Shown here one piece after another: positions 30,686-34,925 of a stretch of DNA of 64,000 bases. The stretch is from contig DP000238.1 in assembly GCA_000200715.1 (NCBI GenBank), forward strand, positions 1,660,849 to 1,724,848, in the 5' to 3' direction. Numbering within the stretch: position 1 is the stretch's first letter; every line of letters starts with the position of its first letter. This DNA comes from Cenarchaeum symbiosum A. Lineage in GTDB: Archaea > Thermoproteota > Nitrososphaeria > Nitrososphaerales > Nitrosopumilaceae. The notes under the pieces are model-generated. The model worked only from the letters and a program-made list of their open reading frames with translations. It was not told where the DNA came from and did not search any database. Made by a program: the position numbers and the translations under genes.

Positions 30686-31069
30686 ATGTGGGTAAAGAAT
30701 ACCGCCTGGAAAAAGATCGACGTCATGAAGAAGAGTGACGGCCGCATATTCGGGGAGCTCCGCTCGATTGTCTCGGGTCTCTCCCGGAATCCCCATCGCG
30801 GGGTGCAGATGAGGCGCGGGCTGACCGGCTGCAAAAAGATCAAGTTTGGAAAGACCCACCGGAAGAAATTCGAGTACAGGGTGGTCTACATTGTGTTCCA
30901 TGATCTGCGCCAGGTCATCATCCTGTACGCCGGCATACGGAACGACAGCACGTACGACCGCCTGTGGGCCGACGAGAAGGCCCTCAGGAGGGGCGATGAC
31001 TGCGATCCCGCGGGCGATCTTTGTCCCGGGGGGGACCCGCCGCCCCGCGGCGGGCCTCACGCGGAGTAA
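30686..31069 (+). CDS. RelE/ParE-like toxin family protein
   Basis: A 127-aa ORF. The first ~95 residues have the compact RelE fold pattern: a basic helix pair, LTGCKKIKFGKTHRKKFEYRVVYIV, then VIILYAGIRND..YDRLW. The last ~30 are Gly/Pro-rich and probably not conserved. RelE-type toxins cleave mRNA on the ribosome. No antitoxin ORF is seen in the 180 bp upstream or directly downstream. A TATA-like CTTTTATAG lies ~95 nt before the ATG. Confidence 0.6.
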   Translation: MWVKNTAWKKIDVMKKSDGRIFGELRSIVSGLSRNPHRGVQMRRGLTGCKKIKFGKTHRKKFEYRVVYIVFHDLRQVIILYAGIRNDSTYDRLWADEKALRRGDDCDPAGDLCPGGDPPPRGGPHAE

Positions 31070-32841
31070 TAGTACCTGCCGGAGCCCTTCTGCTCCTTGT
31101 CGAGCCTGCTCCCCGCCTTGTTTATGCGGGGCCGCATGGAGTGCTCGTCGCGCCGGAACGATATGCCGAGCGAGCGGAGGAACCTGTTCATGGCCTCGGC
31201 CTTTTTCAGGGGCGCCGTGGCATGCCCCTCGGCGCCCGGCCTGCCCTCGAAGATTATCATTGTATCCGATACAAGGTCCATCAGCTGTATGTCGTGGTCT
31301 ATCACGATGGCCGACCTGCCAAACGAGCGGACGTACTTTTGCAGGAACTTTGCCACGGATATCCGGTCCTCCACGTCAAGAAACGCAGACGGCTCGTCGA
31401 GCGCGTAGACGTCGGCCTTTTGAAGAAGGCACGCGGCCACTGCAACTTTCTGCAGCTCCCCGCCCGACAGGCTGCTGAGCGCCTTGTTGTACAGCTTTTT
31501 TATTCCCAGGTGGTCCGCCACCTGCTCCTCGCCCATGCTCCCCTCGATGGGGCCGCCGTTGGCGCCGTCTAGAATGGCCACCACTTCCGCGTCTGAATCG
31601 CCCTGCAGGTACTGCGGCTTGTATGATATCCTGGCAGTCTTGGCGACCTCGCCTGAATCGGGGCTCTCCACCCCGGCGATCATCTTCATGAGGGTCGTCT
31701 TGCCCAGCGCGTTGGCGCCGGCCACACCGAGCACCTCGCCCTTTCTGACCATGCCCGGCTCTACAGACACCCGGAACTGCCCAAGCGCCTTCTCGAGGCG
31801 CGTATACGAGACTGTCTCCTCGCCCTCCTGAAAGTCGCCGGCAGTAGTGGACGCGTCGAACGTGAACTGCTTGTCCCTGAACCGGATGTTCTCTACATGA
31901 AGGTAGCCGTCAAGAAACGCGTTTATCCCGGTCTTTGCCGGCATGACCCCGGAGACTATCCCGTATACGGCAGGATCCCCGTACAGCACCTCCACATGGT
32001 CGCTCAGGTAGTCAAGCAGTGAAAGGTCGTGCTCGACGACCATCACGCTCCTGCCCGCCTCTGCCAGGCCCTGTATCACCCGCGCCACGCCCGCCCTCTG
32101 GAAGACGTCATTGTACGAGGACGGCTCGTCGAAAAAGTAGAGGTCGGCATCCCGGGCTGCAGCGGCAGCCACGGCCACCCTCTGCAGCTCCCCGCCGCTC
32201 ATCTCTTCTGTGCGGCGGTCTACGGCGCTGCCAAGATCAAGCTCCTTGATCAGCCCCGCAGCGGCCCCCCTCTCGTCGTACTTTTCGATGAGCTCGCCTC
32301 CGGTGCCGTCAAAGGCCTGGGCTACATTTTGCACCTGCTGGGGCTTGATGGACGGCCGGATCCGCCCCTCCTTTATGCCCTCAAAGTGCTGCTTCAGGTC
32401 TGTTCCCGAATAGTACCGGAGAATCTCGTCCCAGTCCGGCGGGCCGTCGTATTTGCCGAGGTTGGGCTGCAGCGCGCCCGAGAGTATGTTGATTACGGTG
32501 CTCTTTCCCATGCCGTTGCGGCCGAGCAGGCCGACCACCTCGCCCCTTCTCGGCGAGGGCAGCCTGTACAGCCGGAACGAGTTCGGGCCGTACTGGTGCA
32601 CCTTGTCCGAGGCCAGCTCCGCCGCGAGGTTCACTATTGTGATTGCATCAAACGGGCAGACCTTTGCGCATATTCCAAAGCCGTTGCAGAGGTTCTCGTC
32701 TATGCGCGCCTTGTGCGTCTCCTCGTCGATGACTATGCATTCGGCGCCCGACTTGTTGACCGGGCAGTACTTTATGCACTCCTGCCCGCACTTGCGCGGC
32801 TGGCACAAGTCATGATCGACTACTGCAACCCTGTGCGTCAT
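31057..32841 (-). CDS. ABCE1/Rli1 ribosome-recycling ATPase
   Basis: A 594-aa twin-ABC protein. The N-terminal ~80 residues have two 4Fe-4S motifs (QECIKYCPV and CNGFGICAKVCPF contexts). Two nucleotide domains follow, with Walker A GLLGRNGMGKS and GVAGANALGKT and signature sequences MSGGELQRV and LSGGELQKV. It splits post-termination ribosomes. The Walker A loops deviate slightly from GxxGxGKS in the second domain (Ala for Gly). Confidence 0.96.
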   Translation of the reverse strand: MTHRVAVVDHDLCQPRKCGQECIKYCPVNKSGAECIVIDEETHKARIDENLCNGFGICAKVCPFDAITIVNLAAELASDKVHQYGPNSFRLYRLPSPRRGEVVGLLGRNGMGKSTVINILSGALQPNLGKYDGPPDWDEILRYYSGTDLKQHFEGIKEGRIRPSIKPQQVQNVAQAFDGTGGELIEKYDERGAAAGLIKELDLGSAVDRRTEEMSGGELQRVAVAAAAARDADLYFFDEPSSYNDVFQRAGVARVIQGLAEAGRSVMVVEHDLSLLDYLSDHVEVLYGDPAVYGIVSGVMPAKTGINAFLDGYLHVENIRFRDKQFTFDASTTAGDFQEGEETVSYTRLEKALGQFRVSVEPGMVRKGEVLGVAGANALGKTTLMKMIAGVESPDSGEVAKTARISYKPQYLQGDSDAEVVAILDGANGGPIEGSMGEEQVADHLGIKKLYNKALSSLSGGELQKVAVAACLLQKADVYALDEPSAFLDVEDRISVAKFLQKYVRSFGRSAIVIDHDIQLMDLVSDTMIIFEGRPGAEGHATAPLKKAEAMNRFLRSLGISFRRDEHSMRPRINKAGSRLDKEQKGSGRYYYSA

Positions 32842-32868: not shown

Positions 32869-33543
32869 TCAGGCCCCGGCGCTCTCCTGCTCCCGTGCCA
32901 GTGCGTCCTTTAGGGTCCGGTCCTGGGTGACCAGTTCCATGTCGTCCCATTTCATCGCATACTTGAGCAGCGTGCAGTCGGTCATGGATAGCGGCTTGCC
33001 CTGCGCGTCCACATACCTGCCCGACTCGAATAGATCCTTTGCGTCGAGCATATAGTCTTCTGCGTGGTTGAGCTCCCGCTTTTCGACCGTGGCCATCTTG
33101 CCCAGCCTCTCCACTATCTCCTCGGATGTGAGCACCGCGCCGTACTCGTGCTTTTCCATGTGGATAGTCTCGGTCAGTATCCTGTCAAGCAGTATGAACG
33201 TTATATCCTTGTCTGTGAGCCCGTCCTTGAACTCGTTTATGCTGCTGCCGTCGAGCAGCCTGTGTATTATCATGGTATCAAGCAGGAGCACCGGCGGCTT
33301 TTTGGCAGCTGCCTTCTGGACGGTCCTGATCTCTATCTTTGGGAGCCCGTCCACTATGGCCTGCAGCTTCCCGAACAGGACGGCCTTGCCGCCGGCAGGC
33401 TCGGCCAGGAGGTTGCCGCAGAACCTGCAGTTTACGGCGCTCTTGGCCATCGAATACACGATGGTGGGCGAGCCGCACGATTCACACTCTATCTTTACAA
33501 ACCGGCTGGTGGGCTCCGGCACCTGTATGCTTGCTGCTGCCAA
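32869..33543 (-). CDS. Ribosomal protein S27e fused to a PIN-domain nuclease
   Basis: About 224 aa from TTG 33543. Residues ~6-65 are S27e: VPEPTSRFVKIECESCGS, a second CRFCG and the LAEPAGGKA tail, forming a C4 zinc ribbon. Residues ~78-220 are a PIN domain with the acidic positions in VLLLDTMIIHR, ILTETIHMEK, SMTDCTLLKYA and LVTQDRTL. There is no stop or frame change between the parts. The open frame continues upstream to 33891 without coding character. Confidence 0.75.
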   Translation of the reverse strand: MAAASIQVPEPTSRFVKIECESCGSPTIVYSMAKSAVNCRFCGNLLAEPAGGKAVLFGKLQAIVDGLPKIEIRTVQKAAAKKPPVLLLDTMIIHRLLDGSSINEFKDGLTDKDITFILLDRILTETIHMEKHEYGAVLTSEEIVERLGKMATVEKRELNHAEDYMLDAKDLFESGRYVDAQGKPLSMTDCTLLKYAMKWDDMELVTQDRTLKDALAREQESAGA

Positions 33544-33743
33544 CAGGGATGCGCCCCAACACGCCGTAATATGCCTATCGTGCGGCCCCCGCAAGGCCCC
33601 GTCCCAGGCGGGAAGCCGATCCGGGGCCCTTTTCCCCGCCTGCCAGGGCGGGATGCCCGCGCCGCATCCCCCGCGCGCGGCAGGCCCGTCGGGGGAAAAA
33701 CCGCGGAATAATAGATATATACCATCCGGCCGCCTGAATCTCA
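33544..33743. other. Divergent promoter region
   Basis: GC-rich spacer between the S27e-PIN gene and the exported-protein gene. A plus-strand TATA-like AGATATATACC at about 33711-33721 is ~27 nt before ATG 33744. No gene seen. Confidence 0.5.
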
Positions 33744-34925
33744 ATGAATAATTCAAGACAGAGACTGGTTCTGTTTGGTGCGGCCGCACTGGCAATCGCG
33801 CTCGTGGCGCCCGCATTTGCAGACCAGACAAACAATCCTGATGATGACGACGTGGCGCCCGCACCGCCCAGCATAGGCGCGGACATACCACTCACGTACT
33901 TTGGCCCCGCACCGTCCCAGGTCCAGAAGGAGCTCATAGGCCCCTACCAGCTGCTCAAGGCGGGCACTGTGGACCTTGAAAACGGGACAGTCACACTGCC
34001 CCTGTACAAGGGCAAGGTGAGGGAGGGCCCCGACACGTTCCATACAGTATGGTACATACTCACTGACACGACCGACAAGGGCAACGCTGAGGCGCTTGGC
34101 CTCAACTATTCCCCCAAGCTCACGTATGCCGAGATCGACGGCGCCGTAAGGTATGCAAAGCTGCACCACGGCGCGGAGCTCGTCTTTGCGCGCGGCATGG
34201 TAGACTTTGAGCCCGAGCGGTCGGTCACAGGGACCGGCTTCCCGCCTACGAGCTTCCAGCCCGGATCAGTGGCGGATGAGCACTATTCGCCGCTCGTCCT
34301 TGTGAGCAACGCAGGCAGGCACGTCTACAACGCGCCCATGATTGCAACAGGCGAGGACATTGAGGCATGCGACGGGGATCCCGACTATACAAAGGTGCAC
34401 GACAGGGTCGTGCGCATATGCCCCGAAGAGGGCACCGTAACCATCGAGATGACCGCGGGTTTCAGCTTTGCAAGGCCGATAATGTACATCAGCATGGACA
34501 GCAACGACGAGCTAGCAGCCTCCCTGGAGGCGGCCACCTGGGCGCCCGCCATGAGTCAGATTGACGTTGGCAGGGACGACTCCGCGTGGAGCGCCGTAGA
34601 GAGGCTCTTCGTCATGGCCAACGGCCCCACGGGTTCAGAGAACCCCGGCAGGCAGGGCCTAGACAGCGCCATACAGGATCACAAATCCCCGCTCAACGTG
34701 CTTGGCGGCATACCCACCATAGCGACCGACTACTCGCCGCTCTGGGACCTCAACTTGGGGTTCTGGACCGAGGAGGCCAAGGAGAAAGGCTATGACTTTA
34801 GGGTCACAGAAGAGTTCCAGATACTCGGACTGGTGGAGCAGGGATGGATAACGGGGCCCGAAGGCGGGCCCTACGGCAGCACCGGGATAATAGTCAATTG
34901 TCCCATCGTGTTCAGATTCCTCTAA
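33744..34925 (+). CDS. Exported protein, DUF7482-like
   Basis: A 393-aa protein with a signal peptide (hydrophobic VLFGAAALAIALVAPAFA, cleavage near residue 27) and a long acidic mature region rich in Pro, Asp and Gly. Segments such as YKGKVREGPDTFHTVWYILTD and STGIIVNCPIVFRFL recall a family of archaeal secreted proteins (DUF7482, name from memory) of unknown function. It has its own TATA element and a T-run terminator. Confidence 0.75.
   Translation: MNNSRQRLVLFGAAALAIALVAPAFADQTNNPDDDDVAPAPPSIGADIPLTYFGPAPSQVQKELIGPYQLLKAGTVDLENGTVTLPLYKGKVREGPDTFHTVWYILTDTTDKGNAEALGLNYSPKLTYAEIDGAVRYAKLHHGAELVFARGMVDFEPERSVTGTGFPPTSFQPGSVADEHYSPLVLVSNAGRHVYNAPMIATGEDIEACDGDPDYTKVHDRVVRICPEEGTVTIEMTAGFSFARPIMYISMDSNDELAASLEAATWAPAMSQIDVGRDDSAWSAVERLFVMANGPTGSENPGRQGLDSAIQDHKSPLNVLGGIPTIATDYSPLWDLNLGFWTEEAKEKGYDFRVTEEFQILGLVEQGWITGPEGGPYGSTGIIVNCPIVFRFL

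Follow-up and report, generated by a model that had tools for sequence, protein, structure and literature searches.

A relocated ribosomal protein S27e gene joined in frame to a predicted VapC-like PIN domain in Cenarchaeum symbiosum

Cleavage of RNA on the ribosome, be it in no-go decay, in toxin action or in rRNA trimming, is normally the work of factors that visit the ribosome. Several described systems bring together elements that bear on the gene presented here. VapC-type PIN ribonucleases (PF01850) usually act as dimers; Nob1, a PIN_6 protein with a zinc ribbon, is associated with the 3' end of small-subunit rRNA; Utp23 and Utp24 are PIN proteins of the small-subunit (SSU) processome; and the eukaryotic ubiquitin-S27a chain is made as a fusion and then cut. 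S27e is counted with the universal archaeal ribosomal proteins (PMC3655853), and in yeast eS27 is one of the proteins on which the early steps of small-subunit pre-rRNA processing depend (PMC6336269). We describe a gene of Cenarchaeum symbiosum A, an ammonia-oxidising archaeon that lives as a symbiont of the sponge Axinella, within a window of 64,000 nucleotides analysed here (positions 1,660,849 to 1,724,848 of contig DP000238.1), in which S27e continues into a predicted PIN domain.

The S27e-PIN architecture is that of a single gene (Table 1), its frame reading from 33543 to 32869 on the minus strand of the window and staying open for 224 codons. A preliminary description had S27e run into a PIN domain without a stop at 32869-33543; both the uninterrupted frame and the coordinates hold, and we add the strand, which it did not give. 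Translation from the TTG start yields MAAASIQVPEPTSRF, whose spacing matches the MKKDHIEIPKPSSKF of relatives (MKKDHIEIPKP), for an equal N-terminal length. GC3 values for the S27e part, linker and PIN part are 81/73/78%, coding character thus persisting through the linker, across which both other frames contain stops. One of these stops, near codon 69 in frame +1, and the existence of a single genome record would suit an assembly or sequencing artefact, in which an S27e ending near codon 69 and a PIN protein starting from an internal GTG or ATG were joined by one error. S27e homology, however, reaches about residue 65 without a change of frame, which makes chance read-through very unlikely and would confine any error to a few codons; the GC3 of the linker is that of coding sequence; the in-frame GTG85 and ATG91, possible separate PIN starts, have no evident Shine-Dalgarno sequence upstream; and the relocation of S27e described below is independent of any such error. 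A single sequencing error within those few codons of one record is improbable, and we regard the artefact as extremely unlikely.

Table 1. Coordinates of the S27e-PIN gene, its parts and associated loci (window positions unless a locus is named)
Feature	Coordinates	Strand	Evidence and remarks
S27e-PIN fusion gene	32869..33543	-	224 aa; TTG start, TGA stop; single open frame
S27e domain, residues 1-65, zinc ribbon C20, C23, C39, C42	33349..33543	-	PF01667 1.5e-14
Linker, residues 66-84 (GLPKIEIRTVQKAAAKKPP)	33292..33348	-	coding GC3 retained; stops in other frames; low pLDDT
Predicted PIN domain, residues 85-218, putative catalytic acids D89, E125, D189, D208	32890..33291	-	PF01850 0.017; homologues; AlphaFold; Foldseek
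ABCE1 (RLI) ribosome-recycling ATPase	31057..32841	-	Fer4_RLI and two ABC domains
Intergenic region upstream of fusion, TATA-like stretches	33544..33743	.	sequence reading only
Divergent gene, DUF7482 domain	33744..34925	+	PF24298 3.3e-11; N-terminus signal-peptide-like by eye
L44e locus of the window genome, S27e gone from conserved slot	L054 4669-5007 (G000:C1 1966668-1967006)	-	

The S27e part matches PF01667 at E = 1.5e-14 (53.9 bits, above the curated cut-off of 24.5) and is matched by eS27 chains of the PDB down to E = 6.7e-13. Its CXXC...CXXC zinc ribbon is present with all four cysteines (C20, C23, C39 and C42), and 11 of the 13 S27e columns conserved in Thermoproteota are kept, the two exceptions being Val for Ile and Met32 for a near-universal His. 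The NCBIfam equivalog model NF001629 (PRK00415), which covers the S27e part of the fusion only, scores it at 62.5 bits, short of its cut-off of 70, marking the domain as divergent; we have therefore filed the gene as an S27e-domain fusion rather than as a standard S27e. In a phylogenetic tree, this part is fast-evolving (branch 2.4 versus a median of 0.095); a very long and weakly supported branch (82/41) places it inside the Nitrosopumilaceae, beside the genomes G132 and G180. A foreign origin of the S27e part was considered, its GGKA and CRFC motifs looking less like those of Nitrosopumilaceae, and an AU test on the 60 columns does not reject a position outside that family (p = 0.32). The fast evolution and the lost near-universal His suggest that this S27e may be partly degraded or altered.

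The genome forms one contig of 2,045,086 bases, is 99.9% complete and carries S27e in single copy. A separate, normal S27e gene, which the preliminary description had envisaged as a point to be checked, does not exist in this complete genome, the fused copy being the sole one: searches with PF01667 and with a relative's S27e at E values up to 10 retrieved no second copy, with a weak match (E = 0.05) at 1062938. S27e is almost never missing in the phylum, 315 of 316 good genomes having it; the fused gene, with no second copy to stand in for it, should therefore be the one that works as ribosomal S27e. A ribosome that does without S27e, its zinc ribbon having been turned into an RNA-binding module of an extra-ribosomal PIN nuclease, would accord with the fast, divergent evolution of the S27e part and with a homologous PIN protein (L067) that has a zinc-ribbon-like C-terminus instead. 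The near-universality of S27e in the phylum, the lack of a second copy in this genome, and the retention of the cysteines and of most conserved columns all speak against such a loss, which we hold to be very unlikely.

The gene has also moved. S27e lies directly 3' of L44e for all 55 other distinct S27e sequences placed by tblastn (43 from the same family and 12 from other families of the phylum, all short stand-alone genes), but not in the window genome, where L44e keeps its conserved adenine-deaminase-like and nucleotidyltransferase-like neighbours and the slot after it is empty. The fusion is followed on the same strand, after 27 bases, by ABCE1, with which it is possibly co-transcribed. 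This ABCE1 is 64-73% identical to those of seven relatives, and upstream of ABCE1 in these seven we found neither S27e nor a matching PIN. The empty L44e slot and the absence of S27e and PIN from the ABCE1 loci of relatives together indicate that S27e moved upstream of ABCE1 and gained its PIN there. ABCE1 has been located near h44, h5-h15 and uS12 (PMC7196836); the proximity of the two genes is at most suggestive of a functional link and may be coincidence. On the far side of ABCE1, between it and a TRM5/TYW2-like methyltransferase gene, lies a 127-aa ORF (30686-31069, plus strand) with a weak YoeB-like toxin match (PF06769, E = 0.082). No antitoxin was identified for it, and it is absent at this place from relatives in which ABCE1 and the TRM5/TYW2-like gene are adjacent.

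For the PIN part, PF01850 gives E = 0.068 within the whole protein and 0.017 for the domain alone; the scores of 14.2-16.1 bits fall under the Pfam curated cut-off of 23.6, so that sequence on its own is insufficient to call a PIN domain. Homologues and structure prediction carry the assignment further. Two homologues are 43% and 31% identical to this part, one of which (L066) matches PF01850 at E = 0.0083, and the three sequences share 30 invariant columns that include D89, E125, D189 and D208. AlphaFold models most of residues 85-218 with pLDDT of about 90; its S27e part is of low confidence, as an alignment lacking S27e relatives would lead one to expect. The top Foldseek match in the PDB is PAE0151 of Pyrobaculum (2fe1; E = 4.7e-4, probability 1.00), followed by VapC20 (5wzf), other VapC proteins, Nmd4, and Utp24-type PIN proteins of the SSU processome. 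The PIN domain with acidic residues of the preliminary description is thus borne out by the four acids common to the three homologues and by the predicted fold; we describe residues 85-218 as a predicted PIN fold, VapC-like, with no close family. A VapBC module is not apparent, since no antitoxin-like gene adjoins the fusion, its neighbours being ABCE1 and the DUF7482 gene. Nob1 was considered as an identity for the PIN and rejected: PF17146 (PIN_6) matches another locus, near G000:C1 8878-9138, and not the fusion. That locus encodes a normal Nob1, PIN and zinc ribbon included, as the preliminary description had proposed to verify, and the fusion PIN is therefore not Nob1.

Searches for the same fusion among relatives, another line raised by the preliminary description, found it in none. 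The genomes covered, 400 of the class, 250 of the family and 398 of the phylum, yielded no second instance, although the scan of 400 genomes of the class considered open-frame extents for stronger S27e matches only, so that other types of S27e fusion may occur. The S27e frames of G132 and G180, which are longer, were considered as the same fusion and rejected, their short tails lacking a PIN. G132 is another Cenarchaeum-group genome, with S27e at the ancestral place and a short Ala/Pro-rich tail; the S27e of L038 (G132:C1 1510450-1510629) and that of L035 (G180) both have Ala/Pro-rich C-terminal extensions, of about 14-18 residues. No paper on an S27e-PIN fusion was found among the open-access papers searched. 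With the fusion in one genome only, its conservation is no evidence of function yet.

The PIN itself occurs in three genomes in total, the window's own and two Nitrosopumilus metagenome-assembled genomes (MAGs; RKRY01000018.1 and JACNFV010000082.1), and was not found in the 397 further genomes sampled from the phylum; no relatives of it were found in phage, plasmid, viral-contig or defence collections. In one MAG the PIN protein (L067 1805-2740) has no S27e part and a Lys-rich N-terminus; a long stretch of it is charged, and its CPKC...CPKC C-terminus is zinc-ribbon-like, making another architecture of PIN and zinc ribbon. In the other MAG the homologue starts at a contig edge, and a normal S27e is encoded elsewhere in that genome. 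Such patchiness is expected of mobile toxin-type PINs and, taken with the single genome and with the weak RelE/YoeB-like ORF across ABCE1, which hints that the spot may collect toxin genes, would fit a passenger domain: a relocated S27e would have run into a stray VapC-like gene, and the PIN would be inactive or rarely active and near-neutral on an S27e that is still ribosomal. The retention of the four acids and of 30 columns in the three homologues nevertheless suggests selection on the fold and active site of the PIN, at least until recently, and we consider a mere passenger unlikely, though a contender.

We favor, with a probability of roughly 0.5, the reading that the only S27e of this genome, relocated and joined in frame to a VapC-like PIN, is a ribosomal S27e that tethers a nuclease to the 30S subunit. 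S27e would have left the ancestral L44e-S27e pair and been fused, by way of a flexible Lys/Ala/Pro linker, in frame with a VapC-like PIN endonuclease domain; its S27e part would assemble into the 30S subunit as usual, carrying the PIN along; and the tethered PIN would cut RNA on or close to the small subunit, acting either on the mRNA of stalled ribosomes or, while the 30S subunit matures, on rRNA. Incorporation into the ribosome, nuclease activity, the substrate and a link to ABCE1 are all parts that we infer. The suggestion in the preliminary description that such a nuclease would mature rRNA or cleave mRNA on the ribosome is, judged from the domains, compatible with the fusion. Tethering is favored by the single S27e, the empty slot after L44e, the 11 of 13 conserved columns, the invariant PIN acids, the predicted fold, the separate Nob1, the lack of an adjacent antitoxin-like gene, and ABCE1 close by on the same strand. 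Against it, each ribosome would carry an unrestrained nuclease, which could do harm, and the dimeric action of VapC-type PINs sits poorly with one S27e per 30S subunit; the restriction of the fusion to one genome, the fast evolution and lost His of the S27e part, and the low Pfam score of the PIN count against it as well. A nuclease on every ribosome would be avoided if the whole chain were cut in its linker, leaving a normal S27e in the 30S subunit and a free PIN nuclease. The linker would suit such processing, being an unstructured Lys/Ala/Pro stretch that separates two compact domains; yet we have identified no protease or cleavage motif, and to our knowledge there is no precedent for a processed S27e fusion, which we judge rather improbable, on a par with the passenger domain.

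That a ribosomal gene so constant in its position should have moved is unusual by itself. If tethering is true, a nuclease that belongs to a ribosomal protein would amount to a natural experiment, showing how cells cope with and exploit an RNase that is permanently attached, and the S27e C-terminus would offer a ready-made tether for probing which RNAs can be reached from the small subunit. The fullest version, in which every 30S subunit of a single lineage has recently acquired, within an essential ribosomal protein, a built-in RNA endonuclease that cuts mRNA or rRNA, is a tentative proposal that we think somewhat doubtful.

Compared with known systems, the N-terminal part is closest to archaeal S27e (eS27, PF01667), sharing its four-cysteine zinc ribbon, PxP start, GGKA motif and N-terminal length; the fusion differs in having 224 aa against about 65-69, in not lying 3' of L44e, in Met32 where a His is near-universal, and in its very long branch. 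To VapC-type PIN ribonucleases (PF01850; PAE0151, 2fe1; VapC20, 5wzf) it is linked by the predicted PIN fold, the acidic residues and the best structural matches, but it has no antitoxin partner, is joined to a ribosomal protein, and scores under the Pfam cut-off. Utp23 and Utp24 resemble it in that the PIN matches their structures in pre-40S complexes; no sequence similarity to them was found, and they are not fused to a ribosomal protein. Nob1 likewise pairs a PIN with a zinc ribbon and shares a potential link to the small subunit, but its domain order and type of ribbon are different. Ubiquitin-S27a (eS31) of eukaryotes offers a parallel, in that there too a zinc-ribbon protein of the small subunit is produced as part of a fusion, with another ribosomal protein, another partner, and the fusion at the N-terminus.
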